Shown here: one piece after another, positions 11,266-26,198 of the stretch
Layout of the letters: every line of letters begins with the position of its first letter
Position numbering within the stretch: the first letter of the stretch is position 1
The notes under the pieces: generated by a model
Seen by the model: only the letters and a program-made list of their open reading frames with translations
What the model was told of the DNA's origin: nothing
Database searches by the model: none
Translations under genes and position numbers: made by a program
Origin: a virus
Virus record (IMG/VR): IMGVR_UViG_3300010885_031497
Span: 1-31,642 of that record
Direction: 5' to 3' (one strand)
DNA length: 31,642 nucleotides

Positions 11266-11847
11266 CTAGGCTTTGTGACATGCAAAAAAATGATCTATCC
11301 AGGTAATTGTACACTCATGGGCAGCAGCAAAATCGTCAATGGCCTGCTTGCCATCTAATATGGCCTGGCCAGTGATCCAACCATTTGGTTTTATCTTTGT
11401 CCACCACCAGCTGATATTGTCCATGTACACAGCATATCCCTGAGTATCAAATCCAATATGAACTAGATCCAACGGCGTCTCCCACAGTTGGCACACTTCG
11501 CCAGCCGGAGATGTTCCAAAATGCAGAGTTATGTTTTTACGTGTGCCTATAACTTCTTCAAAGCGTTCCACAGCAGTCTTGTCTTGCAAATCAAATATCA
11601 CGCGGCCTTCGGGCAGCTTAGGATGTATTTTACCTATTTTGCCGCTCCATTCGCCATCATCTATACCGTGTATGCTGCAATCTGGTCGGCAGTCTGACAT
11701 GATGCATAACACACCGCCTATGTAACAACCAACTTCCAACATCACCGCAGATGTCGGCAATTGAGCTAGTATTGACACTAGTTGATTCACACTTTCAGGT
11801 GACATGCAATGTGTCTCAATTTTAGGATCCCATGCATGGTATGACAT
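11266..11847 (-). CDS. Class I SAM-dependent methyltransferase (Methyltransf_24-like)
   Basis: The 193-residue protein shows motif I for S-adenosylmethionine binding, MLEVGCYIGGVL (residues 36-47), then an acidic loop at the end of strand 2 (IHGIDDGEW) and a later strand LDLVHIGFD that would hold motif IV. The C-terminus has WWWTKIKPNGWITGQ, a usual post-IV segment. The family includes small-molecule, sugar and protein methyltransferases; none of the DNA-methylase motifs (NPPY, DPPY) is present, so DNA methylation is unlikely. Its ATG is fused to the stop of the upstream 83-aa gene (TAATG), which points to coupled translation. Confidence 0.8.
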   Translation of the reverse strand: MSYHAWDPKIETHCMSPESVNQLVSILAQLPTSAVMLEVGCYIGGVLCIMSDCRPDCSIHGIDDGEWSGKIGKIHPKLPEGRVIFDLQDKTAVERFEEVIGTRKNITLHFGTSPAGEVCQLWETPLDLVHIGFDTQGYAVYMDNISWWWTKIKPNGWITGQAILDGKQAIDDFAAAHECTITWIDHFFACHKA

Positions 11848-12099: not shown

Positions 12100-12789
12100 T
12101 TATTCGTATCTCGAGAACATCCTGTACGAATGCTTGCTACCAGGTCCCTTGCTGCGAAGATTTCCTATGGTTCCAGGTCTAGATATTTTAGTGCTTGCTT
12201 GCGCCGCATGGCGTATTGCTCTGCGCCTTGCTTCCCATTTAGCTCTGAGTGCGTTCCAATCAGGTTGTAATTTCAAGGTGCGCAACACTGTGCTATGGCT
12301 GACTACATTACCCAATTTGTTAGCAATGTCTACGGGACTCTTGCCTTCACTATATTCGTCTCGCATGACTTGTATCATGTCATTGGTTACCTTGTCTTTT
12401 ACTCTGGTATGAGGTGTTGATCGCCTAACCTTCATCTCATCTTTTACAGTGTCTATGCCCCATTGAGATGTGAGCACTGACCTAACCAAGCTAGGTGGTA
12501 TGCCCATGTCGGCTGCAATCTCAGATATGGTTTTTTTATCTGCAAATGCCAAGGTGATTGCTACCTTGTCGTCGGTTGTAAGTGCGCCTCCCAGGTGCTC
12601 TGCACGACGTTCCCTACCGCCATAATATCTATTAAGCATGTTGCCGACATCATTCCTAGTGGTGCCTATCATGTTGGCTATATCTTCATAACTGTAGCCC
12701 TGATCATATGCGTACTTGATATCTTCGATATCCCTAGGTTCATATTGTTTTGCAGCCCTAGCTTCAGTGATAAACTCGTGTGCTCTCAT
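12100..12789 (-). CDS. Triple helix-turn-helix DNA-binding protein with capsid-targeting-like N-terminus
   Basis: The 229-residue protein has three HTH-like units, at about residues 20-55 (YSYEDIANMIGTTRNDVGNM), 71-112 (KTISEIAADMGIPPSLVRSV) and 134-172 (KSPVDIANKLGNVVSHSTVL), then a very basic tail. The spacing is that of homeodomain or resolvase-type recognition units. The first ten residues, MRAHEFITEA, resemble the start of T4 internal protein I (MKTYQEFIAEA), which targets proteins to the prohead and is cut after Glu by protease gp21. Here the cut would fall between E9 and A10. I infer a DNA-binding protein packaged in the head. The start has GTGAG a few bases upstream and lies just after the 837-aa gene. 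Confidence 0.85.
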   Translation of the reverse strand: MRAHEFITEARAAKQYEPRDIEDIKYAYDQGYSYEDIANMIGTTRNDVGNMLNRYYGGRERRAEHLGGALTTDDKVAITLAFADKKTISEIAADMGIPPSLVRSVLTSQWGIDTVKDEMKVRRSTPHTRVKDKVTNDMIQVMRDEYSEGKSPVDIANKLGNVVSHSTVLRTLKLQPDWNALRAKWEARRRAIRHAAQASTKISRPGTIGNLRSKGPGSKHSYRMFSRYE

Positions 12790-12793
12790 GATC

Positions 12794-15307
12794 TCACCAT
12801 TTCACATTCCATTGGAATGTCTTGTTAGTGTTTGGATTGGTCTGCTGTGTTATGGTATAACCCAGATTGGTGAAGTAGTTGATTATGGTACCCATCTGAT
12901 CAGCATATGGGCGTGTGAGGTTAGGATCGAGTGCATTACCTCCCTGCCAAACTTGGAAGTAATCATAGCTGGCTGGATAGGGTATCACACTCATCGTACC
13001 AGATCCATAACCAATAGATGCTGTTGCAACCGCTGCATTGCTGCCTAGATTCTCAGGAGCGCTTATGCTCACAATTGGTATAGACGTGTAGCCCTGCCCT
13101 TGATCAGTTATGGCTATGGTTGCTATGCTAAAACCTCTTATCACGCTGGTGCTGGGCTGTATTGGTTGTACGGTCTCACCTGCACCCGCAATAACATTGA
13201 CCTGCGGATTGCTTGAATAAAATTCACCACCGCTGGTCATCACTATCTGCTGCACACCTGTGCCATACAAGCTCACATTGGCCGTGGCAGCCCCAGATAT
13301 ATTAACCGTTGGTATGCTGGTATAGTTGTTACCATATTGGGCTATTGACACAGATGCCACAGACGTGGGTATCAGCAATGCAGTGGCTGTCGCCCCTGTG
13401 CCATCGCCCTGTATCAGCACTTCTGGTGCTTGCACATATCCTGTACCAGGATATGTCACAGTTACACTGGCTACTTGACCATTGCTCACTGTGGCGCTGG
13501 CCGTGACACCAATGCCAAATTGGCTAGCAAAGCTCACTGTGGCAAAGCTATAACCGCTGCCAGTGTTGCTCATGTTGACAAATTGCACACCAGTAGCAGT
13601 GAGGTTGGCTGTGGCTGTGGCACCACTGCCGCTGGTTATGGTAGCAGTGGGAACCTGAGTGTAGCCTGTACCAGATGCAGTAACCACAACATTGCTGACT
13701 GTGGTACCCGATAGGATACAATAGGCTTCGGCACCCACTCCTTGGCCATTTGCAGTAGAGATCAACAATGTTGGTGGTTGAGTGTAACCAGTACCACCTG
13801 AGCTTAGAATCAAGCTGTTGATACCTGCTGTGAGATTGAAGCTTGCAGCCTGTCCACTACCGCCATAGACTGCATTGCCTTGCATGACAGGTAATATGTT
13901 GTAAAGACCGCCAGTCATCAAGGTAAAGTTTACGATAGATCCTGCAGAATCAACTACGTTGACCATTATAGTTGCACTGGCTGCACCAGCACCACCGGCT
14001 ATGATCAGTGTATCGCCTACCACATATTGGCTGCCAGCACCTCCTGTGGCCAGTGTGGCACCTGTCATCTGCATGTAAACAGTGCTGACAGCTGCTCCTG
14101 ACCCTACAGAATCAATGGTAATGCTAGGTGCATCTGTGTATGATGCACCGCCGTTGTAAGTCAGTAATATGTTACCAACTCCTGTGGGTTCAAGATATGG
14201 AACTGCTGTGGCACCGCTACCACTGGTTATGGTTATTGCAGGTTGGCTCACATATCCAGATCCAGGATATGACATGTTGATGCTGTTCACAACTCCAGCT
14301 GATAAGGTTGTATATGCTAGCGCCCCGGATCCGCCGCCGCCTGCTATGGTCACTAATGGAGGAGCAGTATATTGTATGCCAGCAGTGGATATGGAAATGC
14401 TGCCAATGCCCATGCTGAGATCCAACGTAGCACCAGTTCCGCCGCCTGGGCTCACAGTAGTTACGACATTGCTTAGGTTTGGCAAGATGCTGTAATTACC
14501 AGATGTGGTCAATGACACAGTCTGCACTGATCCGCTACCAAAAGTTGACGTAACTGTAGCGCGAGTAGCTGTACCGGTTCCACCAACTGCAGTGAGCACA
14601 TCGCCTACTGCATAGTTTATACCAACTTGGTTTATTAACCCCGTAACTGCTGTAAATGTTGCTGAACCCGCTGTGGCTCCGCTGCCCTGTGATACTATTG
14701 ACACAGATGGCGGATAGTGATAACCGCTGCCGTTGGAGCCTACCACTATATAGCTAACGCTACCATATGGTGCTAGATAGGCCTGCACAGTGGCATTCAC
14801 TGTGGCATTACCACCGGATATCGTCACAGTGGGCGTTGCAGTGTATCCTGTGCCTTGGTTGATGAGATTGATAGCAGTGACACCGCTGCTAAGGCTGATA
14901 TTAATTGGTCTTTTAGACAGTGCCTCCTGCTTTGTAGCAGCTAATCGTATGTTGTCTTTATCCACATATATCACATAGTACAGAACATTGATCATCAGTG
15001 GACTTGGTAATTCGCCTGTGCTGTTGACAAATACTGCTTCGCCAGTGTTATAAGGATGATTTGGTATTTCAAACGTGCTAGAAGTGTCGTTAATGTTATA
15101 GACTGGTTCATTTATACCAGCATTCTGTGTCATGGTAGTACCTTGGTTTACCAGGGCATTATAGAAGCCGGTGCGGACAGCTTCCAGCACAGCTGCGCTG
15201 ATTGCAGTGCCTTCGTCAAACACGATTCTTTCGCGAATTGGATTCTGTCGTGCATCCGCAGCTGTGATAAAGATGCTGCTAGCTGTAGTACCACCGTTAA
15301 CTGCCAT
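12794..15307 (-). CDS. Large beta-repeat virion protein (fibre or neck/baseplate decoration)
   Basis: The 837-residue product has a non-repeat head (residues 1-145), about fifteen degenerate units of 40-45 residues between 145 and 760, and a C-terminal cap ending in FQWNVKW. Each unit reads roughly G-(T/S)-G-Y-x-x-x-P-x-V-x-I-(S/T)-x-G-x-G-A-x-A. Such Gly/Thr/Val-rich repeats make stacked beta layers and occur in phage structural proteins. I expect a trimeric virion appendage but cannot say which. No enzyme motif is visible. The start overlaps the upstream 114-aa gene by 11 bases. Confidence 0.85.
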   Translation of the reverse strand: MAVNGGTTASSIFITAADARQNPIRERIVFDEGTAISAAVLEAVRTGFYNALVNQGTTMTQNAGINEPVYNINDTSSTFEIPNHPYNTGEAVFVNSTGELPSPLMINVLYYVIYVDKDNIRLAATKQEALSKRPINISLSSGVTAINLINQGTGYTATPTVTISGGNATVNATVQAYLAPYGSVSYIVVGSNGSGYHYPPSVSIVSQGSGATAGSATFTAVTGLINQVGINYAVGDVLTAVGGTGTATRATVTSTFGSGSVQTVSLTTSGNYSILPNLSNVVTTVSPGGGTGATLDLSMGIGSISISTAGIQYTAPPLVTIAGGGGSGALAYTTLSAGVVNSINMSYPGSGYVSQPAITITSGSGATAVPYLEPTGVGNILLTYNGGASYTDAPSITIDSVGSGAAVSTVYMQMTGATLATGGAGSQYVVGDTLIIAGGAGAASATIMVNVVDSAGSIVNFTLMTGGLYNILPVMQGNAVYGGSGQAASFNLTAGINSLILSSGGTGYTQPPTLLISTANGQGVGAEAYCILSGTTVSNVVVTASGTGYTQVPTATITSGSGATATANLTATGVQFVNMSNTGSGYSFATVSFASQFGIGVTASATVSNGQVASVTVTYPGTGYVQAPEVLIQGDGTGATATALLIPTSVASVSIAQYGNNYTSIPTVNISGAATANVSLYGTGVQQIVMTSGGEFYSSNPQVNVIAGAGETVQPIQPSTSVIRGFSIATIAITDQGQGYTSIPIVSISAPENLGSNAAVATASIGYGSGTMSVIPYPASYDYFQVWQGGNALDPNLTRPYADQMGTIINYFTNLGYTITQQTNPNTNKTFQWNVKW
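13028..14875 (-). repeat. Tandem degenerate GxGYxxxPxVxI repeats inside the 837-aa gene
   Basis: About fifteen units can be read, for example GTGYTATPTVTISGG, GSGYVSQPAITITSG, GTGYTQVPTATITSG, GTGYVQAPEVLIQGD and GQGYTSIPIVSISAP. Two units have Y-V/A-V-G-D in place of the proline half, which suggests a second unit type. DNA similarity between units is limited, so expansion is old or under strong selection for protein shape. Confidence 0.8.
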
Positions 15308-15641
15308 TGCTCATGCTCTTCTTTGCTGCTTTACTTGCCATCTGCGCGACCTTATCTTCACTTGCGTTGGCTTCGTCGTCTGACGCTTCGCTGTCTGGTA
15401 CAGTGTCTTGCTGGAGAATCACTTCATTTGGTGTGATCCTCTTTACACCACTCTTGTCTTTGAGATTGTCCATAACCCAGCGTATATTAGCATCAAAACC
15501 CTGATTGTGAAGAACGCTTAGGATCTCATCCATTGGTATGCTGGCTGCATCCTTGCTGCGATAAACAGTGATGAGATCCAACATAGCATTTTCTGCTTCC
15601 TCAGGGCTGCTAGGTAGGCTTGATATTTCGCTGTACCTCAT
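15297..15641 (-). CDS. Small acidic-tailed protein of unknown function
   Basis: The 114-residue product has a helical first half (EEAENAMLDLITVYRSKD, then PMDEILSVLHNQGFD) that may form a small winged or four-helix unit, followed by an acidic low-complexity tail (SEASDDEANASEDK) and a basic end. No motif is known to me. It lies between the 933-aa and 837-aa genes, 14 bases after the first and overlapping the second by 11 bases. A chaperone or assembly partner for the repeat protein is possible from position alone. Confidence 0.75.
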   Translation of the reverse strand: MRYSEISSLPSSPEEAENAMLDLITVYRSKDAASIPMDEILSVLHNQGFDANIRWVMDNLKDKSGVKRITPNEVILQQDTVPDSEASDDEANASEDKVAQMASKAAKKSMSNGS

Positions 15642-15655
15642 CAGTGTTCACCAAT

Positions 15656-18457
15656 TCACTTGGCTGCTACACGGTCAAAGTGCTCTGGATTAATCAGCGC
15701 AGGCTTCAAACTATCATTGAGCTGTGCCCAATAATCACGTGCCTTCTGATCTTCAAAGAACTTGGTCTTGCGCTTGCCCTGCGACTCGTACATAACACCC
15801 CACGGCTTGGTAGACTTAGCTGTTGCAAAACGCGCCGCTTTGCGCTCTTCCTTGATCGCTGTTAGTAGCTTTGCATTGCTGTCTGCTTCAAGCACACGTA
15901 TTTGATTAGTTAGATCATCTGCCATGGATGTGACTTCAGCTATCTTCTTCTCAAGGAGATCGCCTTCTAGTCCTTGTCCGCTCTTCAGCAGGTCTTTGAC
16001 CTTGCCTTCTGCTAGACGCTGAGCAAATTCTGCACGGTGTTCTGCGAGATCAGCTTCATATTTACGCTTGCCGCGCTGCGCCTTTTCTACCAGATTGCCA
16101 AGACGCGCAATGCTCTCATCTGTACCTTCGATCTTCTTGCCAATCTCATGTGCCTTCTTAACAACTTTCTTTGGAAGATCGTGTGCAGGCTTGTCTGGAT
16201 CCATGCCAGCTTCTTTCTTGGCCTGCCACATGCCTATGGCAAATGGGCTCTTGCTCTTCTTAGCAGCTTCGTCCATTTTCTTGGCCTTGTCTTTGATAGC
16301 CTTGGTCATTGGTTCTTTCTTGTCACCGTCCTTGTCGATATCAAGAAAGTCTGGCTTCTTGCCCTTGGTTTCGTCTACGCTTTCTTTCTTGATGGTACCA
16401 AACTTGTCTTTCTGCTTGGCACGTATAGCAAAATCAATCTGCTTCACAGTCTTCTGTTCAGCTGCGCTGCGCTCTTCCTTGTCCATAAGCTTCTTTTTCT
16501 TGGCCTTGAGATCAGCTATGGTATAACCATCCCATTTGCCCTTGTCCTTCTCAGCGGTGTGCATCTCAGTGCCCCACTTTTCAGATACGTTTTTGCGACC
16601 TTCTGCCAGTTCTGGTTCTTCACCCGGTGCTGCCTTTTTGGCACGACCTAATGGCTCTTCACCGCCAGCTGCTGCTGGCATAGTACCCATGCCATCTCCA
16701 GCCCCTGCTTCTGGAGCCATTGGCGCTGCACCTAGTTCCATGTCCATGTTTTCGATATCACTGGCACCCTGTCCGGGGATACCCCCGCCTTGCAGAGCTA
16801 AAACAGCATCATCGCTTTGATCTTTAGCAGTCTGCACGCTTTGCAGCAGTTCTTCAAGCTGCGCCTTCATTACATCGTTATATCCATCAGCAGCTTCCGG
16901 TCCAAACTGCGTCTTCATGGTATCTACTAACGGCATGAGATCGTCCACGCCCATGCGTGCTACCTTTTCTGCCATGCTCTGTAGATCATCACTGATGCTC
17001 TTGGCAGCAATCAGCGTCTGAGCCTGCTGCAGATCCTGTTCAGGTGTCTCAGCAGCTTCGCGCAGTATGCGTGCTACCAATCCATACCGACTTTCTTCTA
17101 GGCCCATGTCTTCGCCAGCATGACGTTCAAATGCCTTGTAGTCCAAGAAGTGCTTGCTACTGCTAATACCCTCGCTGGCCTTGGTCAGTTTCATAGCTAC
17201 CCAGCCCTCTAGATGGTCACCTGGCTGTATCATCTGGAACAGCTTGATGCTGTACTCGACAATCTCAAGCAGATTCATGCGTGCAATGCTGCCGCTGGTC
17301 TCGCCTAATTCTTCGTCGCCACCCATGTCCTCATCGTCCATGCTGTAGTCAGCCATTGGAGCATCTTCACCTAGCACGCCTGGTTCTGCATGCTGATAAT
17401 AGTCCATGTAGTGATAGATCTTGTCCAGGTTCATAGCAGCTTTGGTCAAGCAGCTAGCTATCCAAGGCTCAATCTCGTCTTCCTTGCGGATCATCTTCAG
17501 CATGTCCATGCCATACTTGGCATTGCGATATAACTCGCTGCGTGCCATGCTGGCCTGATAATCATGATGCTGCATGTGTTCTTCGTTGAGTGCCTGTGCT
17601 ATCCTGCTGGTCATCTGTTCATTAACCTTGAAAGTTTTACCGCCTACTTCAAACTCATCCTTGTGTGCAGCTTTGGCAGCTGCTAATGCTCCAGTGAATT
17701 CGTTGCCCTCGTCTGTGATCTCTTCGTCCATCTCATGCCCAGCATCAACACCATACTTCCTCATCAGTGCTGCTAGCTCTGGATCCATGCTGTGTGCTGC
17801 TGCAACCGTGTCTGCCATGTGTGCTGCAGACTCTTCTTTAACAGGTGCGCTCTTTTCAGTCTTCTTTGAGTGATGCTTGTCGTACATCTTGTGACCCATG
17901 CGCAATGCCATGAGGTTTTCTTTAGCCTGCCTGCGATCATCCTCGTCGTCGTTGGTATCACCAACGCGGGCTTCGTAGTAAGCAACGAGGTCTTTCATGC
18001 TCTTTGGTGAGAATGGTTGTCCCAGACGCACTAGATCTTCACCCACCCGGCCAAAGCTGTTCAGCACGGCCAGCAGCTTGTCATCCTTGGTATTGGCCTT
18101 TTCTGCAAAGTCCATCATCCAACGACCAACCTTGGTAGCATGGCTCTCGCTAAGATTGGTTTCTTCGCTTTCGCGGAGGTTTCGTGGACGACGCCTTGGT
18201 GCTATCTCTGTGAGGTACAATCGCACTGCTTCCATAATCAACATGTGCTTGGTATAAGTTGGATTGCTGTGCCAGCTGTTAAAAGCACTCTCGCTGACTA
18301 TGCTGTTCTTGACTATCTCGCTGCTGTCGTGTATGGCCGCAAGCTCGTCTATGCTTGACTCATCTAGTGTTAGCTCTGTGTCATACACATGCTTCAGTGT
18401 GTGAGCTATCTGGGCGAGCCTGTGCTCTGCGCTTGTTTTTACATCATCAACGAACAT
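15656..18457 (-). CDS. 933-aa mosaic protein, probably virion or head-core associated
   Basis: No enzyme motif is visible. The architecture in order is: helical N-terminus; a tandem pair of about 50-residue helical modules at residues 302-353 and 390-440, each with pattern (S)-x-A-R-x-x-L-x-x-x-x-(K/E)-Y-x-x-x-(L/M)-x-x-M-I and ending in D-Y; a 450-560 helical part (ARILREAAE onwards, QTLIAAKSI); a Gly/Ala/Met-rich linker (555-600); a Lys/Glu-rich region with an EF-hand-like loop DIDKDGDKKE at 706-715; a coiled coil at 785-875; and a C-terminal unit (KPWGVMYESQGKRKTKFFED). Similar modules occur in other aquatic T4-like phages. The ATG has a very strong AGGAGAGG site and a late-like promoter upstream, so high late expression is likely. 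Several L-x-E-(A/G) sites fit prohead protease processing. Confidence 0.82.
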   Translation of the reverse strand: MFVDDVKTSAEHRLAQIAHTLKHVYDTELTLDESSIDELAAIHDSSEIVKNSIVSESAFNSWHSNPTYTKHMLIMEAVRLYLTEIAPRRRPRNLRESEETNLSESHATKVGRWMMDFAEKANTKDDKLLAVLNSFGRVGEDLVRLGQPFSPKSMKDLVAYYEARVGDTNDDEDDRRQAKENLMALRMGHKMYDKHHSKKTEKSAPVKEESAAHMADTVAAAHSMDPELAALMRKYGVDAGHEMDEEITDEGNEFTGALAAAKAAHKDEFEVGGKTFKVNEQMTSRIAQALNEEHMQHHDYQASMARSELYRNAKYGMDMLKMIRKEDEIEPWIASCLTKAAMNLDKIYHYMDYYQHAEPGVLGEDAPMADYSMDDEDMGGDEELGETSGSIARMNLLEIVEYSIKLFQMIQPGDHLEGWVAMKLTKASEGISSSKHFLDYKAFERHAGEDMGLEESRYGLVARILREAAETPEQDLQQAQTLIAAKSISDDLQSMAEKVARMGVDDLMPLVDTMKTQFGPEAADGYNDVMKAQLEELLQSVQTAKDQSDDAVLALQGGGIPGQGASDIENMDMELGAAPMAPEAGAGDGMGTMPAAAGGEEPLGRAKKAAPGEEPELAEGRKNVSEKWGTEMHTAEKDKGKWDGYTIADLKAKKKKLMDKEERSAAEQKTVKQIDFAIRAKQKDKFGTIKKESVDETKGKKPDFLDIDKDGDKKEPMTKAIKDKAKKMDEAAKKSKSPFAIGMWQAKKEAGMDPDKPAHDLPKKVVKKAHEIGKKIEGTDESIARLGNLVEKAQRGKRKYEADLAEHRAEFAQRLAEGKVKDLLKSGQGLEGDLLEKKIAEVTSMADDLTNQIRVLEADSNAKLLTAIKEERKAARFATAKSTKPWGVMYESQGKRKTKFFEDQKARDYWAQLNDSLKPALINPEHFDRVAAK

Positions 18458-18510
18458 GGAAACCTCTCCTGGCCAGCCGGCCTTATTGCTTGGATTGCTG
18501 GTATTTATTT

Positions 18511-18518
18511 AGCTATAG
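18511..18518 (-). promoter_or_regulatory. Late-promoter-like octamer AATAAATA
   Basis: The minus strand reads CTAAATAAATACC in the 82-base gap between the IscA-like gene and the 933-aa gene. AATAAATA is one base from the T4 late consensus and lies 54 bases before the ATG at 18457. No other signal fills the gap. Confidence 0.5.
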
Positions 18519-18539
18519 CAGGGAGGGAAGAGTGTATTA

Positions 18540-18857
18540 TTAAAGGCTGAAACTGGTGCCGCAACCACAGGTGCTGGCTGCTTCTGGTATGTCTATGACA
18601 AAATATGCACCAGCAAGATCAGTCTTGTAATCCACTGTGGCATTGTCCAGAAGGTCATAGCTGATCTTGTCGATCACCACTGGACCTGTGGCTGTGTCTA
18701 TGATCATGTCGTCTGCGTCCACAGCATCGGTCCAGCCAAAATGTTTTTCAAATCCATTGCATCCGCCAGCACGGATTTCTATGCGTGGGGCACAAGGATT
18801 ATCTATCCTTAGCTGGCCAAAACGTTCTATGGCTTTATCGGTTAGCTTTACTGGCAT
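18540..18857 (-). CDS. A-type Fe-S cluster carrier (IscA/ErpA/HesB family)
   Basis: The 105-residue product is a complete A-type carrier. The three cluster cysteines are present at C33 (RAGGCNGFE), C97 and C99 (STCGCGTSF), matching C35, C99 and C101 of E. coli IscA. These proteins receive Fe-S clusters from a scaffold and pass them to target enzymes. In a phage it could keep host Fe-S supply going, or mature a phage Fe-S protein, but no such target is visible in this window. The start overlaps the end of the 221-aa gene by 23 bases and has only a weak ribosome site, which suggests translational coupling. Confidence 0.93.
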   Translation of the reverse strand: MPVKLTDKAIERFGQLRIDNPCAPRIEIRAGGCNGFEKHFGWTDAVDADDMIIDTATGPVVIDKISYDLLDNATVDYKTDLAGAYFVIDIPEAASTCGCGTSFSL

Positions 18858-19500
18858 CTTCGAGGATCGCCTTGATGTCGCGTTTAATGCTTCCAGCAGT
18901 GTCTAGAGCTTTCTGGAATTTAGTTGCGTAGATATCTTCCTTGATCATGTCACCGCGCTGCTCAGCACGCCTCTGTGCCTTTTTGCTGCTCATGGCATCG
19001 ATCTTGCAGCTGGTATAATGATCGTCTAGTTCAAACAATCGGCGCACAGTGGGATTATTCACATATTTGTGATTGTTTAGCATCTTCACTGCCGCTAGTG
19101 CCACCTCATACAAAGTGATATCGTTGGCAATGACCATACCAGTGCCGCTGTGCTCAATGCTATAAAACTGCTTGCCAGCTGCGCGTTGTTCATTGAGATG
19201 TATCTCAATCTTGTATTCACCTACGCTGACACTGCTGTGATCTCTGCGAGTCCGTGCACCCAGTTTCTCATCTGGACTGCTCTCCATTATCACCTCATTG
19301 GTCACTCTGTTGAGATTTTCTAACACTCGAGCCATAGCATGCACTTCGGCCTGGCTTGGGCTACCTGGCCCGCCTTCGGTGCTGAGGCTTTCTGTGACCA
19401 TTTGATTTCCGTTGCTGCCAGATGCCGGCGGTGCTTCACCATTCATTATGGCCATCATGCGGGCCATGGCCTCGCGTTCTGCATCAGTGACCACGGTCAT
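18835..19500 (-). CDS. Unknown 221-aa protein upstream of the Fe-S carrier
   Basis: The product has a Gly/Pro/Ser-rich N-terminal third, a central beta-type section (GEYKIEIHLNEQRAAGKQFY, then TGMVIANDITLYEVALAAVK) and a charged helical C-terminus. The central section looks like a small binding fold, but I cannot name it. Its ATG shares one base with the stop of the 76-aa gene (TGATG), and its end overlaps the IscA-like gene. The set forms one translational unit. There is no signal peptide or membrane span. Confidence 0.75.
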   Translation of the reverse strand: MTVVTDAEREAMARMMAIMNGEAPPASGSNGNQMVTESLSTEGGPGSPSQAEVHAMARVLENLNRVTNEVIMESSPDEKLGARTRRDHSSVSVGEYKIEIHLNEQRAAGKQFYSIEHSGTGMVIANDITLYEVALAAVKMLNNHKYVNNPTVRRLFELDDHYTSCKIDAMSSKKAQRRAEQRGDMIKEDIYATKFQKALDTAGSIKRDIKAILEDASKANR

Positions 19501-19730
19501 CAGTCTCTCTCCACATATTCAATATCATTGTAGGTGTAATAGGTGCGCCCGTCAATAAATGCACGGTCCAGCACACCTCTGAACACCAACTGTCTAGCCA
19601 GCTCTTGCTCGCGTTCGTTAAGTTCTCTTCTAGGCAAGGGAGCACCGTGACCTCTCACACGCTCGCTGACCAGCATCTCGTCATTGCTGACTGGAACCAT
19701 CAATCCACCTGTGATTTCAAGGAACTTCAT
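19500..19730 (-). CDS. Small unknown protein, 76 aa
   Basis: The product reads as a short beta hairpin followed by a charged helix (RRELNEREQELARQLVFRG) and an aromatic end (GRTYYTYNDIEYVE). The helix plus short strands could be a small winged-helix type fold, but no motif proves it. It overlaps the 237-aa gene by 4 bases (ATGA) and the 221-aa gene by one base, so it sits in a coupled operon and is likely real. Confidence 0.72.
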   Translation of the reverse strand: MKFLEITGGLMVPVSNDEMLVSERVRGHGAPLPRRELNEREQELARQLVFRGVLDRAFIDGRTYYTYNDIEYVERD

Positions 19731-20440
19731 GACTGTGTTGCTGCACCAGATGCTGCGGCTTTTGCCATGCTATCTGCAGACTTAATGAAATCAGCACCCA
19801 TAGCAGTCAGTGTATTCAATGCCTGCAGCTTCTGTTGACCAACCACTGTTTGCGGCGGAGAGTCAGCAAAACTCTTACCAAGCATTGCTAATATGCTGCC
19901 TGCGGCGTAGAATCTGGCTGCTTCTGCATTGCCTTTGTATTGCGGCATAGCTTCGGCAGATTGCTGTAATTTATCTAGCATGTCATCGTTGGCATCTTCA
20001 CTGATATCGAAACCCGCGATTTCTTCTGCTACCACAGCACCGCTATGTTCTAAGCCAGCCAGCTGCATCATGCGATTGATTGTTGGCATAGCTTGTACAC
20101 CGCCCAGCACGCCTTCTTCTATTCTCTTGCTTATCTTGCTCTCATGTACCATCTTGAGATTTCCTTTATCTATTATACCCACTGTGTTACGTGGACCTTG
20201 TGCTATGCGCACTTGTGTTAATTTGCCTTCGTACAGCACCTGCTCACCTATCTCATACTGAGATATATGCACAGCATTTGCGATCTCTCCTTGGCTGAGA
20301 TGATGTTTCGCTTGGCGACTGAAACGGTCAGCAGTGGTCTCATAGAGACCTTCTGCGCCGTTGAGATCTACCTGTGCGAATTTCTTGAGACGTCTCATGT
20401 CATCATCCTCCGAGGTTATGGCACGTATGAATTCAAGCAT
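19727..20440 (-). CDS. Unknown 237-aa virion-region protein with a KOW-like strand segment
   Basis: The start is set at the ATG at 20440, because the extra 52 residues of the longer frame (to 20596) lie over a better small gene in another frame. The product has an N-terminal helix (MLEFIRAITSEDDDMRRLKK), a barrel-like segment (GEQVLYEGKLTQVRIAQG, then NTVGIIDKGNLK) that resembles a KOW/SH3 unit, and the phrase MPTINRMMQLAGLE, a pattern recurring in aquatic T4-like phage proteins. The last third is Ala/Ser-rich and helical. It overlaps the 57-aa gene by 8 bases (ATGCTTGA). Function unknown. Confidence 0.78.
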   Translation of the reverse strand: MLEFIRAITSEDDDMRRLKKFAQVDLNGAEGLYETTADRFSRQAKHHLSQGEIANAVHISQYEIGEQVLYEGKLTQVRIAQGPRNTVGIIDKGNLKMVHESKISKRIEEGVLGGVQAMPTINRMMQLAGLEHSGAVVAEEIAGFDISEDANDDMLDKLQQSAEAMPQYKGNAEAARFYAAGSILAMLGKSFADSPPQTVVGQQKLQALNTLTAMGADFIKSADSMAKAAASGAATQS

Positions 20441-20606
20441 TTGGATCAGCGTACCTTGGTTTCTTAATGGGGAACATTGGCTTAGGGAGCTTGGGTAGAT
20501 CTTGCTGTGGGCCAACTTCGCGGTCAACCTTGGCCAGCTGACCGTACTTGCGGATCCAGACCTTCTTGATACGCTTGACACCTTCAAATACTTCATCCAG
20601 CAGCAT
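20433..20606 (-). CDS. Small basic protein, 57 aa, easily missed
   Basis: The minus strand has an ATG at 20606 followed by 57 codons and TGA. It begins MLLDEVFEGVKRIKKVW and is rich in Lys, Arg and Pro (DLPKLPKPMFPIKKPRY near the end). A very strong ribosome site, GGGGAGAG, lies 6 bases ahead, and a late-like ACTAAATA lies 21 bases ahead. The stop overlaps the start of the 237-aa gene by 8 bases. The competing long frame over the same bases lacks such signals. The protein looks like a nucleic-acid-binding or structural minor protein, but I do not recognise it. Confidence 0.78.
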   Translation of the reverse strand: MLLDEVFEGVKRIKKVWIRKYGQLAKVDREVGPQQDLPKLPKPMFPIKKPRYADPNA

Positions 20607-20612
20607 TGCTTG

Positions 20613-20620
20613 CTCTCCCC
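20613..20620 (-). promoter_or_regulatory. Strong ribosome binding site of the 57-aa gene
   Basis: GGGGAGAG on the minus strand, 6 bases before the ATG at 20606. It decides between this small gene and the longer overlapping frame starting at 20596. Confidence 0.75.
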
Positions 20621-20627
20621 AGTGTGA

Positions 20628-20635
20628 TATTTAGT
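20628..20635 (-). promoter_or_regulatory. Late-promoter-like octamer ACTAAATA
   Basis: ACTAAATA on the minus strand between the terminator hairpin and the 57-aa gene. It differs at two positions from TATAAATA, but the same octamer recurs ahead of the 83-aa gene at 25700-25707. Its place right after a terminator supports a new transcript start. Confidence 0.45.
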
Positions 20636-20648
20636 TGCTATTCATGCG

Positions 20649-20672
20649 AAAGGGCACCCGGAGGTGCCCTTT
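20649..20672 (-). terminator. Strong hairpin terminator after the 264-aa gene
   Basis: A perfect 10-bp stem AAAGGGCACC / GGTGCCCTTT closes a 4-base loop. It lies 30 bases past the stop of the 264-aa gene. The T run is short (TTT at the stem end), so it may act in both directions or rely partly on stem strength. It is the strongest hairpin I found in the window. Confidence 0.85.
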
Positions 20673-20701
20673 CTGTGTTAGTACCCTGTGGGTTTGATCT
20701 A

Positions 20702-21496
20702 TTAGATCAAGCCGCCTGGGAGTGCGCCAGTGAGAGCAGCCATGGTGTTGGTGAGGCTTGCGCTGCTGGTGATGAACGTGTTCACATATGGAGCAACAGT
20801 GTTTGTGGTAGCGAAGGTGCTGTTTGTAGCTGCTGCGCTGCTGTTGGTTGAACCACTGAGTGCTTGGCTGCTCTGGTTATCGTAGCAGAGCAAGCCGTCA
20901 AGACCACCGTACAGCGTGTTGTTGCCAAGGATCAGGTAACCCTGATTGTTGGTGTTGTCAGCAGTTGTGCCGGTGTTGTAGTTATTGTTGAGGTAGCTTT
21001 CCCAAACATTGTTCTTTTCAGTGCTTACATTGACGATGTATACTGGATACGTTGCTGTAGCATTGTAGCTTGAACCAAACACGCTGGTGACTGCACCAGT
21101 GATGTTGTTGTAGTAACCAGCCTGAGCAAAATATGCACTGGTGTATGGGTTGATAGCAGCACCGTTAATGCTAGCTAGCAATGTACCAATGCTTACCTGT
21201 ACAGGGTTACCACGTCCTGCGAATGTATTCACGAGGATATTGTAGTTCTGTTGCTGATAGAACGCATTGAGGTACTGGTTGAGGCTGGTGTAGACTACAG
21301 GGGTACCAGCACCGTTGGTCACGGTGTAGTTTGTCCATGTACCAAGGGTGGCATATACCTGATAACCAGGAAGGTCCACTACAGGGGTATCAACGTTAGT
21401 CTGGCCAACTGGTACCAGGGTAGCGAACGAGAACCACTGTGGCTGTCCACTGAGGAACGAACCAGAACGGTAATTACCATTTACTTGATCAGTCAT
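20702..21496 (-). CDS. 264-aa virion-type protein in its own late transcription unit
   Basis: The product is rich in Asn, Thr, Gly, Tyr and Ser with almost no charged residues, as in extracellular or capsid-surface proteins. Segments such as NYTVTNGAGTPVVYTSLNQ and SYNATATYPVYIVNVS look like beta strands. The gene has a perfect late promoter (TATAAATA, 21540-21547), a strong site (TTAGGAGAG) 7 bases before the ATG and a strong terminator, so it is probably made in high amounts. The C-terminus ends in a hydrophobic Gly/Leu stretch (GALPGGLI). I do not recognise the family. A head decoration, whisker or fibre protein would fit. Confidence 0.82.
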   Translation of the reverse strand: MTDQVNGNYRSGSFLSGQPQWFSFATLVPVGQTNVDTPVVDLPGYQVYATLGTWTNYTVTNGAGTPVVYTSLNQYLNAFYQQQNYNILVNTFAGRGNPVQVSIGTLLASINGAAINPYTSAYFAQAGYYNNITGAVTSVFGSSYNATATYPVYIVNVSTEKNNVWESYLNNNYNTGTTADNTNNQGYLILGNNTLYGGLDGLLCYDNQSSQALSGSTNSSAAATNSTFATTNTVAPYVNTFITSSASLTNTMAALTGALPGGLI

Positions 21497-21539
21497 TTTT
21501 TCTCTCCTAAGAGTTAATGCAAAACTGCTTTGCTAGGAT

Positions 21540-21547
21540 TATTTATA
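21540..21547 (-). promoter_or_regulatory. Perfect T4-type late promoter TATAAATA
   Basis: The minus strand reads GGTATAAATAATCC, an exact match to the T4 late -10 element TATAAATA used with a gp55-type sigma factor. It lies 43 bases ahead of the 264-aa gene ATG, with no -35 element, as expected. Confidence 0.85.
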
Positions 21548-21559
21548 CCGCAGCTCATA

Positions 21560-21769
21560 TCAGCTGCGCTTACGGGATATCTTGGTCTTCTTTGGCTTCT
21601 GTTGTGGTTCATCATACGGAATATAACCAAAAAGGCTAGGTCGACGATTGATATTACCCATTGGATTGGCTATGCTAGCTACATTTCCAGCGCTTGTAGA
21701 GCCGCCGCTAGCGCTCTCTGTTATATCAGGGAATTCACCGTCTTTCTTGGTTAAGTCCTTGATTCTCAT
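21560..21769 (-). CDS. Small protein, 69 aa, with a prohead-protease-type site
   Basis: The product starts MRIKDLTKKDGEFPDITES and continues with a Gly/Ser/Ala-rich stretch (GGSTSAGNVASIANPMG) and a basic end (KPKKTKISRKRS). I-T-E18 before S19 has the T4 prohead protease form (I/L)-x-E. The ATG overlaps the stop of the ligase-like gene by 4 bases (ATGA). The Ser/Gly/Ala segment followed by arginines resembles the tails of other small proteins in aquatic T4-like phages. A short DNA-binding internal head peptide is my best guess. Confidence 0.7.
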   Translation of the reverse strand: MRIKDLTKKDGEFPDITESASGGSTSAGNVASIANPMGNINRRPSLFGYIPYDEPQQKPKKTKISRKRS

Positions 21770-22920
21770 GATTGTGCATCCTTCTTCATGAAGTGGGGTC
21801 TGTTGACCAGTTTGATCTTTCCACTAGGCGTGTCTGCAACATAACCTTCGTGTCCTGGCACGTCTCGTAGATCTGCTTTGACTGTGCCGCCTACCTGTGC
21901 ATCTACATTGCGTTTCAACAGATCCTTGAGCTTGGTAAGTTGATCAGCAACCATCCAAGCAGCCCCATAGCCCTTGGGGTTCTCATTGATCCATGTGAGC
22001 AGATTCTCTCGTTTACGATCAGTGAGATCTTTGATATTACTCTTGGCCCATGTCAAAAAACCATTAGCAGCATCTTCCAGACCTTGTGTGCCGGCATATG
22101 CTCTGCTGTTTACATATTTCTTCATAAGTTCGGGTAAATTAGTAAGCTGCCTTGCTGCCAAGCTAGCAGGATCTAAAAATCTATCTATAGCAGCACGGTT
22201 GCTTTCAATGAAATTGCGCAGCGTCGTGATGGATTTGATTGGCAATGCTGTGCTCTCGAGATCGCGTATCTCCGGTCCCATGATAACCAATCCTGGTACT
22301 TCACGCATACCACTGCTTTCGATGTCACCTATAGCACGCGGTTCAGTATCTTCTCTGCTGTCAAACCTGCTATGTACTGCTATACCAGCACGGCTATTGC
22401 CAATACGCTTGCCCAGAGGGCTGTCCACAGGGATACGATAGGTTATCTTACTGGGTTTAAACACATAATAACCGTCAACCACTTCTGGTGTTTTGGTCCA
22501 CAATACATCTCCCGTGAGATATTCCTGCTTGTCTGCAGGCATTGCATGTTCAAGCATGTCGTACAATCCTGCTATGCTTTGGGCGTAATCCTGCCTGCCA
22601 GGCTCGTCCGGCTTGCGCATGAACAACATGGAATTTAGATCACTGGCACTGCGAGGCATTCCGCCTGGTTTCTTGCTGCCAAATCCGCTCTTGTCTGTGA
22701 GCGTGAATCCGTCAGCATCGCGACCAAATATCAGCGCAGGGCTCCCATCCCACTTTATGGTTACTGTGTGTGGTTGTTCAGCAGCTTGGATGAGAGCATT
22801 GAGCGCACGCTTAGCCCCAGCAGATCCTTCTTCAAACACCAAATCTTCTGGATGGTCTATTCTGGCCTTGGCTTCAGTTATGAACCAACGTTGCGGTATG
22901 ATTATATCACTATGGCGCAC
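21766..22920 (-). CDS. Nucleotidyltransferase / RNA-ligase-like protein (DUF6267-like) with prohead-protease-type site
   Basis: The start is set at the GTG at 22920, because AAGGA lies 7 bases ahead; the longer frame begins at a TTG with no site. The 384-residue product has motif I of covalent nucleotidyltransferases, TIKWDGSPA, with K56 as the expected nucleotide-carrying lysine (K-x-D-G). A middle part has GDVLWTKT and YVFKPSKITYRIP. The C-terminus reads GHEGYVADTPSGKIKLVNRP, like ligase motifs IV and V (E-G-x-V, then K-x-K). Related unknown proteins occur widely in aquatic T4-like phages. The N-terminus contains F-I-T-E16 before A17, as in T4 internal head proteins. It overlaps both neighbours. 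Confidence 0.83.
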   Translation of the reverse strand: MRHSDIIIPQRWFITEAKARIDHPEDLVFEEGSAGAKRALNALIQAAEQPHTVTIKWDGSPALIFGRDADGFTLTDKSGFGSKKPGGMPRSASDLNSMLFMRKPDEPGRQDYAQSIAGLYDMLEHAMPADKQEYLTGDVLWTKTPEVVDGYYVFKPSKITYRIPVDSPLGKRIGNSRAGIAVHSRFDSREDTEPRAIGDIESSGMREVPGLVIMGPEIRDLESTALPIKSITTLRNFIESNRAAIDRFLDPASLAARQLTNLPELMKKYVNSRAYAGTQGLEDAANGFLTWAKSNIKDLTDRKRENLLTWINENPKGYGAAWMVADQLTKLKDLLKRNVDAQVGGTVKADLRDVPGHEGYVADTPSGKIKLVNRPHFMKKDAQS

Positions 22921-24748
22921 GTCGACGTCCTTCAAGCTGTGATCCAGCTGCAGGCGGCGTAGCAGCAGCTAGTGCTGGTGTGGCTGCTGGTGCTGGTGCT
23001 GGTACTGTTGGTTTCGCAGTCACAGGTTTGGTTCTCGGTTGAGCCACTGGCTTAGCAGCGGTAATATTACCAACTGTGCGCAGATCTCGTAGTAATGCCT
23101 GTAACTGATCCTGATTGCGTATCCTGCTGATAGCCAAAGTCAATTGCTGTACTATATCTGGGTGTGCCGGAGCCGGAGCAGGTTGTGCTGCAGGCGTCTG
23201 TGACGTTTGAAGAGCAGCATCTGCTTCTTGTATGCCTTGGCGCTGTAGATTGCTTAAGATTGTTCTGGCATTTGCCTGTGTCAATCTGGCTATCTCACCT
23301 TTGATACCGCGTAGAGTTTTCAAGGCTGCTTGTTGATCCTGATAAAGCAGTTCTCTGGCCAGTGCGATAGCTGCATCTTTGCCTTCGATTGATAGCTTGT
23401 CATTAACCAATTTGTCTATCTCAGCATCACCTGTCTTGATAGGCTGACTGGCTGTTGATGGTGCAGCAGATGCTGCAGGGGTAGCAGCTGCTGCTGGAAT
23501 TTCCATCTGGTATTTCTTAAAGATTGCTTTAATGTCATCTTGCGAAATATTATCAGCTAATAGTTTTTTGTAAAGATTAGTGGTATTCCTATCAAAATTA
23601 TCAGCTTCTCGGAGACTTCTTAAAGATGCAGATACGGCTATAGATTCTTCAAATTCACTATCATCATTCTGGGTAGGAGTGTACTTTCCAGATGCCGCAT
23701 TTGACATTGCCTTGCGCATCGTATCAGCGCTTGCAATATCCTTGTTAAATCCCTTGGCAGCAGCTGGATTTTCTAGCTCAACAAATGACTTTTCTATGGC
23801 TGCACTGCCGCCGCTTAGTTTACCACCGTGTGCGCGAGCTGCTTCGCCGCCGGCCATGAGATCTAGCTCATCTTTTCGCGCCTGTTGATACTCAAAATCC
23901 ATGTTCTTGTGCTCACCTTTGTGTGTAGCAACAATGGTATCGAGAGCCTTCTCGTAGCTGGCATGATCAGTTATCTTGCCATCCTTGGCCATCTGTTTGA
24001 GAGCATTGAGATCGTCTTCTATGCTCTTATGATGAGATGCATCGGCGATCGGTGCAGCGGTGCTTGTGTTAGTCATCATCATGTGGCCAAGCTGGCCCAT
24101 GGCTGTGGCTGCCAATCCGCCTATGGCTCCCGCAGCTAGGCCCATAGCCGCACCTTCCAACCCTGCTTTTGCTGCTGATTTCCAATCCTGCCCTGCTATC
24201 TTGGCACGAGCAATGCTTGCCAATCCGCCTGCTACTGCACCCGCTGCTTGAGGATTCGCTGTGGCTAATAGTGTAGCTGCACCAGCTGCACCAGACACTG
24301 CAGTTAGTGCCAGACTCTGCAGATTTGGATTCTTTATCGCAGTTTGTGCTAGCCGTAGCAATTCTCGTTTAGCAGTACCATCTGTGACGTTTGATAATGC
24401 AGTCTTGATCTTTGCTGCATATCCTTGTACTGGTGTACTTTTGTTAGCATCCGGTATCTTAGCATAGTATTTTTGTTGTATATCTGGAGGAATTATATCT
24501 GCCAAGGTAGTTTTGGCGATATCTTGGCCCTGTTTGAGTAATTCAACATCGGCCATTATCTTCTGCCATGTATCAGGGTCTATCGTAGACTCTTCATTAA
24601 GCTGGCGTTCGTTGATCTTTTTGCGTAACCATGCACCGTATGGCTTTAAAAATTGATCGCGCATCTCAATGAGATGACGTACTGTCCTGGGATCAGTGCC
24701 ATCTGCTAATGACTCAAATAGTTCGTCTCGGAATTCATGTGCTTTCAT
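22910..24748 (-). CDS. Large putative internal head protein with Gly/Ala hydrophobic core
   Basis: The 612-residue protein begins MKAHEFRDELFES, with a prohead-protease-type site after L-F-E12 and an M-K-A-H-E-F start almost the same as the HTH protein's. Residues 145-220 are long Gly/Ala/Leu helices with glycine-zipper spacing (GAAMGLAAGAIGGLAATAMG) that could enter a membrane. The centre is charged and helical, and the C-terminal third has Pro/Ala-rich linkers around a helical repeat region. More sites of the same type lie after E381 (SLREA) and E508 (GIQEA). No enzyme motif is seen. I infer a protein carried in the capsid that may help DNA entry, but this is untested. Confidence 0.8.
   Translation of the reverse strand: MKAHEFRDELFESLADGTDPRTVRHLIEMRDQFLKPYGAWLRKKINERQLNEESTIDPDTWQKIMADVELLKQGQDIAKTTLADIIPPDIQQKYYAKIPDANKSTPVQGYAAKIKTALSNVTDGTAKRELLRLAQTAIKNPNLQSLALTAVSGAAGAATLLATANPQAAGAVAGGLASIARAKIAGQDWKSAAKAGLEGAAMGLAAGAIGGLAATAMGQLGHMMMTNTSTAAPIADASHHKSIEDDLNALKQMAKDGKITDHASYEKALDTIVATHKGEHKNMDFEYQQARKDELDLMAGGEAARAHGGKLSGGSAAIEKSFVELENPAAAKGFNKDIASADTMRKAMSNAASGKYTPTQNDDSEFEESIAVSASLRSLREADNFDRNTTNLYKKLLADNISQDDIKAIFKKYQMEIPAAAATPAASAAPSTASQPIKTGDAEIDKLVNDKLSIEGKDAAIALARELLYQDQQAALKTLRGIKGEIARLTQANARTILSNLQRQGIQEADAALQTSQTPAAQPAPAPAHPDIVQQLTLAISRIRNQDQLQALLRDLRTVGNITAAKPVAQPRTKPVTAKPTVPAPAPAATPALAAATPPAAGSQLEGRRRAP
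22928..22932 (-). promoter_or_regulatory. Ribosome binding site that fixes the GTG start of the ligase-like gene
   Basis: AAGGA on the minus strand with a 7-base spacer to GTG at 22920. It lies inside the last codons of the 612-aa gene, so the two genes overlap by 11 bases. Confidence 0.7.
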
Positions 24749-25428
24749 GGCTGGCTCAATAGTTGATTTAATGCTTGCTGTAGCGCAACTCTTCTTGCAG
24801 TTGGCGCGGTGGGAGCTGCAGCAGCTGCAGACTGCGTGGTTGCAGCAGGCTCTGCTTGTTTGCTAGATTTTTGATATGTTTGTGTGTTAACTTTTTGATT
24901 AACTTGCTGAGTACCTTGATCAACATCGCCAAACTGTAGTTGTTCCATCCTACGCACACTGGCTATTCCGATCAGCTTTTGTAGTATCTCTGTTGCATTA
25001 TCGCTGTTGATACCAGGCCACAGCTCGTCCAATGTTGCATCACCCTTCATATCATTTATTGTGATGATCTTGGCAGGTTTGAAACGCTCCAATTTACGAT
25101 TTTTACTAGCTGCCTGCATGATTGCTTGTATCTCAGTATCGGACAGCTTCAGACCGCCTCGCATAAACAGATAGACTGCGCGTATTGGCAGCTCGTGCAA
25201 CGTTTTATTGGTTATTGGACCATCGTTCTTGTCAGTGTATCGCCCAACCAGCCGCATCATATCACGCACATTTTTATTCACATAGTCCTGCATCTCGGCT
25301 CGGCCGCCCATCATGCTAGTGCTGTCACTGGGTACCACAGTGGATAACCATTTAGCAATACCTCTGAGACCAGCCCAAATTTCGTCTAATTCTTGTTTAG
25401 TATTTGGTGCATACTCGCTGACTCTCAC
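24745..25428 (-). CDS. Unknown 227-aa protein with a low-complexity C-terminus
   Basis: The start is a GTG that overlaps the previous stop by 4 bases (GTGA), with GAGG 9 bases upstream. Residues 1-150 look like a compact helical domain (WAGLRGIAKWLSTVVPS, then NVRDMMRLVGRYTD). The last 80 residues are Gln/Ala/Thr-rich and end in QALNQLLSQP, a weak amphipathic helix. I recognise no family. It lies between the 83-aa and 612-aa genes in a coupled late string and may be an assembly partner of the large protein. Confidence 0.75.
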   Translation of the reverse strand: MRVSEYAPNTKQELDEIWAGLRGIAKWLSTVVPSDSTSMMGGRAEMQDYVNKNVRDMMRLVGRYTDKNDGPITNKTLHELPIRAVYLFMRGGLKLSDTEIQAIMQAASKNRKLERFKPAKIITINDMKGDATLDELWPGINSDNATEILQKLIGIASVRRMEQLQFGDVDQGTQQVNQKVNTQTYQKSSKQAEPAATTQSAAAAAPTAPTARRVALQQALNQLLSQP

Positions 25429-25676
25429 GGCTTTATACCTCGTAATTCCTTGATCTTCCTGCCAAATTTGCGATGATCTTCGCTCATTATGCTGCGATGC
25501 AATCTCTTGATCAGATCCTGTGCATCTTCTTCACTGTAATTCTCACGTATGAGCTGCACAAGGTTTATGGCGCTGGCAATAACATGGCTAGCTCGGCTTT
25601 CTATCACCGTGTGTTTGCTTTTGGCAGGGACGAACTTATCCAATTCGTCAATAAAGCTGTTGATCTTGTCAGCCAT
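25425..25676 (-). CDS. Small helical protein, 83 aa, first gene of a late string
   Basis: The start is placed at the ATG at 25676, because GAGG lies 6 bases ahead; the ATG at 25688 has none. The product is charged and helical throughout (ADKINSFIDELDKFVP, then EDAQDLIKRLHRSIMS), with no known motif. A late-like ACTAAATA lies 24 bases upstream of the start, back to back with a plus-strand late promoter. The stop overlaps the start of the 227-aa gene. Confidence 0.75.
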   Translation of the reverse strand: MADKINSFIDELDKFVPAKSKHTVIESRASHVIASAINLVQLIRENYSEEDAQDLIKRLHRSIMSEDHRKFGRKIKELRGIKP

Positions 25677-25699
25677 GGTGATCCTCATGCTAGGTTCAT

Positions 25700-25707
25700 T
25701 ATTTAGT
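25700..25707 (-). promoter_or_regulatory. Late-promoter-like octamer ACTAAATA (minus strand)
   Basis: Same octamer as at 20628-20635. It would drive the string 25676 to 21560 leftwards. It stands 15 bases from a plus-strand late-like element. Confidence 0.45.
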
Positions 25708-25722
25708 TACAGCCTTCTGCTC

Positions 25723-25730
25723 GATAAATA
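25723..25730 (+). promoter_or_regulatory. Late-promoter-like octamer GATAAATA (plus strand)
   Basis: GATAAATACC, one base from the T4 late consensus, ends 27 bases ahead of the 146-aa gene ATG. It is the only promoter-like signal for this isolated plus-strand gene. Confidence 0.6.
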
Positions 25731-25757
25731 CCTTTTGTAAATCATCCGGAGTCTATC

Positions 25758-26198
25758 ATGAACATCACACTTCAATCAGATGCAATGCGCGAATTGATGC
25801 GCCGTCTCGCTGAGGCAGATGCTGGAATACTAGGCACTGGTGATACTGCTGCTCCTGCTGCTGCTCAAACACCGGTCGAAGAACCTGCTGCTGCTCCAGA
25901 AGCTGGCACAGAAGATCAACCTGAGGACGACGCAGACATAGAAAAGGTCATGACCGAACCTCGCGATACCACTGCTGAGAAGTTCAGCCTTAGTTCATTG
26001 GCCGATGATCTAGGTTTGGAAAACACACAACTATTCAAAACAGCATTTAATCAGCTACGCAGTGGCACAGAGCCAACTGATCCAGATCAGCTCAAAGAAC
26101 TTGCAGCTGCGTTCACCAAATTGATGAGCACAGATACCAGTAATGCACAGAAGGCGGTAAATCGCCTACGCCAGATCTATAAGAAACCTATCGCCTAA
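25758..26198 (+). CDS. Acidic 146-aa protein with a prohead-protease-type site, plus-strand island
   Basis: The product starts MNITLQSDAMRELMRRLAEA. L-A-E19 before A20 has the form cut by the T4 prohead protease. The middle is acidic and Ala/Pro-rich (EEPAAAPEAGTEDQPEDDAD) and the end is helical (LKELAAAFTKLMS, then AVNRLRQIY). Acidic small proteins trimmed in this way are known from the T4 head core (gp67 and the internal proteins), so a head-core or packaged role is likely. GGAG lies 8 bases ahead of the ATG, and a late-like promoter precedes it. The last 11 bases overlap the end of the helicase gene on the other strand. Confidence 0.82.
   Translation: MNITLQSDAMRELMRRLAEADAGILGTGDTAAPAAAQTPVEEPAAAPEAGTEDQPEDDADIEKVMTEPRDTTAEKFSLSSLADDLGLENTQLFKTAFNQLRSGTEPTDPDQLKELAAAFTKLMSTDTSNAQKAVNRLRQIYKKPIA

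Follow-up and report, generated by a model that had tools for sequence, protein, structure and literature searches.

The internal proteins of the T-even phages have only a capsid-targeting sequence (CTS) in common and counter host nucleases (PMC3012670). In T4 internal protein III (IPIII), it is mainly residues 4 and 7 that matter for targeting and residues 8 and 10 for processing (PMC9026906); T4 Alt is cut at ITE-6 (PMC5694885). The 31,642-nt fragment IMGVR_UViG_3300010885_031497 (the ‘window’, analyzed over its whole 31.6 kb) encodes several proteins that are otherwise unrelated and begin with a short, similar N-terminal segment, or tag. Like the CTS of internal proteins I-III and Alt, which are processed by gp21, the segment is a predicted N-terminal propeptide of 10-20 residues with hydrophobic residues three apart near its start and a cut after [IL]xE, and the cargo is unrelated in sequence. 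It differs in that the start is shifted by one residue (MRAHEF in the window, MKTYQEF in T4) and a variable linker precedes the cut; the cargo also includes enzyme-like and helix-turn-helix (HTH) proteins, and the phages are environmental. The giant phages SPN3US, phiKZ and 201phi2-1 also have a group of inner-head proteins whose N-terminal propeptides can be removed, among them ejection proteins processed by a prohead protease, but those propeptides mostly exceed 100 residues and have an S/AxE-type cleavage motif, unlike the window tags.

The pattern in the window has two parts, a start of the form M[RK]xx[E/D][F/I/L/Y] (the anchor) and a triplet [ILV]xE immediately ahead of the folded domain. 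A sequence-only reading of this DNA had listed five open reading frames with (I/L)-x-E sites near their N-termini as one tagged set; all five are present as it described them, and four share the start while the fifth (25758-26198) lacks it. Gene starts were called with a simple home-made gene finder and refined with homologs, and comparisons were made with a near-complete, syntenic relative of 216 kb (IMGVR_UViG_3300010334_000023, here G001).

The HTH protein (12100-12789, minus strand) begins MRAHEFITE|A, with the tag at 12763..12789; its G001 ortholog, read from an ATG at 40721, begins MRAWEFIVE|A, and the bodies are ~36% identical. A 612-amino-acid (aa) protein containing a glycine zipper (22910-24748, minus strand) begins MKAHEFRDELFE| (24713..24748). 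Alignment gives MKxxEFRDxLFES in 7/7 of its close homologs, whose bodies are 45-60% identical, and a distant G001 homolog begins MRAREFR. For the DUF6267 gene (21766-22920, minus strand), a GTG at 22920 gives the N-terminus MRHSDIIIPQRWFITE|A (tag, 22873..22920); this start is preferred over a TTG at 22935, which was rejected, because nearly all close relatives retain MRHxDI, many of them with an ATG. The 69-aa protein (21560-21769, minus strand) begins MRIKDLTKKDGEFPDITE| (21716..21769), and M[RK][IL][KR]D[LI]...[ILM]xE|S is found in 10/10 aligned homologs. A sixth product, anchored and previously overlooked, is a 227-aa protein (24745-25428, minus strand) that starts with GTG and would be cut before isoleucine, MRVSEYAPNTKQELDE|I (tag, 25381..25428). 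All 11 of its aligned homologs begin M[RK]xx[EDQ][YF], with bodies 34-49% identical to the window protein and an [IL]xE triplet within ~18 residues in nearly all. The triplet [IL]xE stands at the boundary between propeptide and domain in the HTH, 612-aa, DUF6267 and 69-aa proteins.

Two further window genes on the minus strand have an anchor with an unclear or missing site. The gene at 15297-15641 begins MRYSEI (15624..15641), conserved in 6/6 homologs, with no clear cut site, and the gene at 19500-19730 begins MKFLEI (19713..19730) with none; the boundary position of [IL]xE is unclear for both. A family in relatives that resembles the latter (IMG/VR family 47, 67-70 aa; for example L174 8238 and L176 8808) has the anchor (MKFLEI or MKIVEL) in 11/14 members and no cleavage site.

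The triplet by itself, which the sequence-only reading had treated as informative, does not bear that weight. Bare [IL]xE[AS] occurs within the first 20 residues of 6 G001 proteins against 4.6 expected, and it is about as frequent in other phages, whether or not they have gp21; at chance level it is weak evidence, and we dropped it as a sign of a tag. The anchor is another matter. M[RK]xx[EDQ][FYIL] opens 10 G001 genes, a genome-wide count, where shuffled N-terminal columns give 1.43 (0 of 5000 shuffles as high). We also assembled an IMG/VR set of 127 loci (1506 genes, 930 non-redundant), which was gathered around tagged genes, so that anchor rates in it are not genome-wide; the relatives were reached via DUF6267, while viral-contig scans with the HTH and 612-aa proteins as queries gave no confirmed relatives directly. 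In this set a stricter anchor, M[RK]hx[ED][FIL], begins 94 of the 930 non-redundant genes against 8.2 expected (maximum of 18 in 2000 shuffles), and these 94 genes, which come from related uncultured phages, are spread over 28 families. The excess persists without the families used as queries (55 vs. 4.2) and when each family is represented by a single randomly drawn member (21.3 vs. 1.7). Anchored genes also have [IL]xE[ASG] at residues 6-40 more often than the others (38/94 vs. 136/836; Fisher p = 2e-7). A short N-terminal propeptide is thus common to otherwise unrelated proteins, as in the cargo of T4-type capsid targeting.

Two families show the cut site to be the edge of a removable module. 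Among 76 DUF6267 N-termini, ~61 are tagged (read from the list) and ~15 begin at the domain. The AlphaFold model of the window protein has a mean per-residue confidence (pLDDT) of 89.2; residues 1-17 are disordered (below 50), the remainder is mostly above 90, and the cut is predicted after E16 (the P1 residue). Relatives of a G001 nucleotidyltransferase (NTase)-like protein, encoded beside the capsid gene, have widely differing N-termini that almost always contain [ILVM]xE|GG, and two homologs start with a methionine directly ahead of GG. In both families the first residues of untagged homologs coincide with the predicted cut, which is what a removable tag would produce. Loss of the motif with the body conserved, which the sequence-only reading named as one observation that would count against it, was looked for among the relatives: tags persist on diverged bodies (36-50% identity), and the homologs without a tag are those that start at the cut. 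Anchor and site are retained between widely diverged relatives, and where indels occur [ILV]xE stays beside the domain, which implies selection.

A gp21-type prohead protease (Peptidase_S77, E = 1e-26) is encoded on G001, adjoining portal, scaffold and capsid genes; the expected gp21-like enzyme is thus present in the syntenic relative, but it was not found in the 31.6-kb window itself. Peptidase_S77 was found in 7/7 named T4-like phages examined, with no match in Felix O1, SPO1, N4 or phiKZ, the last in this respect unlike G001. The T4-type tag pattern recovered the T4 internal proteins, our positive control, and fits 8 Melnitz genes against 0.38 expected, while no gene fits it in the same four gp21-less phages. 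Its exact register (aromatic residues at 4 and 7, [IL] at 8, E at 10) is found in Melnitz, DLP6, C48C1 and the G001 gene at 78484; the window tags depart from it and represent a shifted variant. The family PF03420 had no match in the window or in any of 14 control genomes, so its absence from the window alone is uninformative.

The claims that the shared start reflects a signal and not common descent, that it resembles the T4 CTS and that cleavage is of the gp21 type gain strong support from these comparative tests (enrichment, diverged bodies, domain boundary and protease). We read the segments as a T4-like capsid-targeting propeptide on a set of unrelated cargo proteins, with a probability of about 0.8; jointly with this, a T4-superfamily phage is the best explanation of the source of the window. 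Under this reading the prohead core would be the binding partner of the anchor, and the gp21-type site [ILV]xE| would follow after 0 to 14 or more linker residues, just ahead of the folded domain. Tagged proteins (in the window the HTH protein, the ligase-like DUF6267 protein, the glycine-zipper protein, the 227-aa protein and the 69-aa protein) would go into the prohead along with the scaffold and lose the tag to the prohead protease; they would then remain with the DNA and reach the host when the phage infects. If so, an N-terminal rule predicts which uncharacterized genes of abundant T4-like environmental phages have products that enter virions and are delivered, a set that would include ligase-like, nucleotidyltransferase, DNA-binding and glycine-zipper proteins, and a variant tag would be at hand for protein-delivery work in phages.

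Several observations weigh against the capsid-targeting reading. The tag set is known from genes, not from virions of this phage, and packaging, cleavage and ejection are what we infer from it. Relative to Y4/F7 of T4 the window anchor is displaced by one residue, the protein at 25758-26198 has no shared anchor, and the families at 19500-19730 and 15297-15641 have an anchor without a cleavage site. The window covers only part of its genome, and neither its own protease gene nor its capsid gene falls within it; the collection of loci is centered on tagged genes, which the family-level recount corrects only in part. Finally, the P-HM1 neighbor of DUF6267 is a member of cluster T4-GC190. The presence of this putative cytidylyltransferase family in purified S-SM1 virions (PMC3037559) speaks indirectly for the capsid-targeting reading, but the family and DUF6267 both appear untagged in P-HM1, which suggests that a tag is not always needed; in Melnitz and DLP6 both genes are tagged.

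Of the other explanations, the one that survives best is that the N-terminal signal is real and serves another destination (host membrane, tail or baseplate, or replication compartment), with the [ILV]xE triplets incidental. The anchored families without a clear cleavage site would fit this, as would the adjoining replication genes (gp41 and gp61-like), but the site is much more common in anchored genes ([ILMV]xE in 84/94 vs. 455/836, p = 4e-12), it lies at a domain boundary in DUF6267 and an NTase, and where homologous proteins carry the T4-type version, that version is the pattern documented for capsid targeting; we consider this other destination unlikely. Spread of a functionless start segment by recombination would account for ATGARAGCACAYGARTTY, which the genes at 12100 and 22910 have in common at the DNA level, yet is very improbable given an anchor and site conserved over large divergence with [ILV]xE kept next to the domain despite indels. 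Coincidence, the chance origin of short motifs in N-termini, is the least credible of all, standing only for the bare triplet and refuted for an anchor that in independent gene sets exceeds the column-shuffled expectation 7- to 13-fold and persists on diverging bodies.

The cargo candidates differ widely in character. The protein at 12100..12789 is a multi-HTH DNA-binding protein with a net charge of +10 and Pfam matches to sigma-70 region 4 and HTH families. The 612-aa protein (22910..24748) has no known family; its Ala/Gly-rich hydrophobic zipper (residues ~146-215) may, as a guess, have a membrane or pore role. The protein at 21766..22920 matches Pfam DUF6267 (E = 1.9e-31), for which a literature search found no descriptive paper. 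Across 42 sequences K56, D58, G59, E358, G359, V361, K370 and R374 are invariant, forming a KxDG motif (motif I), a downstream EGxV and a basic KLVxR as in covalent nucleotidyltransferases, and these are the sequence motifs of the RNA/DNA ligase superfamily. Fold matches in the PDB are mainly to RNA/DNA ligases and not significant (best E = 0.09; template-modeling (TM) score <0.25), searching PDB sequences with the DUF6267 profile produced no meaningful match, and fold matches to phage proteins containing a cytidyltransferase reach E = 1e-24; one PHROG profile covers both DUF6267-like and cytidyltransferase regions. On its motifs, DUF6267 is a candidate ligase-like covalent nucleotidyltransferase. 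Two further tagged G001 proteins (108560-109297 and 6876-7904; MRWREIITEGG and MRITELLEGG) look nucleotidyltransferase-like by eye (GS...DID) and have no Pfam or PHROG match.

The 146-aa acidic protein (25758-26198, plus strand) has an LxE|A site after the N-terminal segment MNITLQSDAMRELMRRLAE| (25758..25814), a putative cut without an anchor. Most homologs keep an ExAD/EAD step at this point despite indels, and there is a weak PHROG head-morphogenesis match (E = 1.3e-4). It may belong to another class of head or core substrates.

A separate feature, common to the window phage and T4 itself, is the copying of the capsid-protein N-arm. Past its predicted cut the 69-aa protein reads SASGGSTSAGNVASI (21671..21715, minus strand), and the G001 major capsid protein past its own predicted cut (ILFE|S) reads SATPGSTSAGNVATL, an arm that is invariant in the relatives read. 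The window segment scores 53 against the G001 arm, a value reached in 0/500 shuffled-arm searches of the G001 proteome and in 0/20000 protein shuffles. Matches to the phage’s own capsid arm, with 0/200 shuffles as high in each case, were found in T4 gp61.1 (18966-19130; score 69), a 58-aa protein of RB49 (11412-11588; 81), a 234-aa protein of P-HM1 (146124-146828; 108), a 169-aa protein of Syn9 (154444-154953; 96) and a 58-aa protein of Vibrio phage 2.275 (16459-16635; 46). In a five-phage cross-comparison, the copies of T4, P-HM1, Syn9 and Melnitz each matched best with their own arm. In Melnitz (p = 0.225), HTVC008M, C48C1 and S-PM2 the match fell short of significance, and the copied segment is absent from the S-PM2 member of phrog_4187. 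Top matches in DLP6 and phiM12 were not counted, as they lie in differently placed proteins; the phiM12 protein (179442-179867, 141 aa) has an arm-like segment near its C-terminus (score 48, 0/200 shuffles as high).

Like the 69-aa window protein, T4 gp61.1 and PHROG phrog_4187 have a copy of the mature arm of their own phage’s capsid protein near the N-terminus, and gp61.1 also has a CTS-like start; the cyanophage versions, in contrast, are untagged and longer. An evenly balanced proposal is that this small protein of the T4 superfamily, tagged in several phages, would occupy the arm-binding site of the inner shell, where it would staple or tether proteins of the interior, and that it would co-evolve with the capsid protein.

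Other genes were noted in passing. Within the window, the products of 15656-18457 and 25425-25688 match PHROG families of virion structural proteins (E = 7e-16 and 2e-17), and 18540-18857 appears by eye to encode an IscA/HesB-type iron-sulfur protein. On G001, adjacent GroEL-like and GroES-like genes were recognized by eye at 67688-69617.

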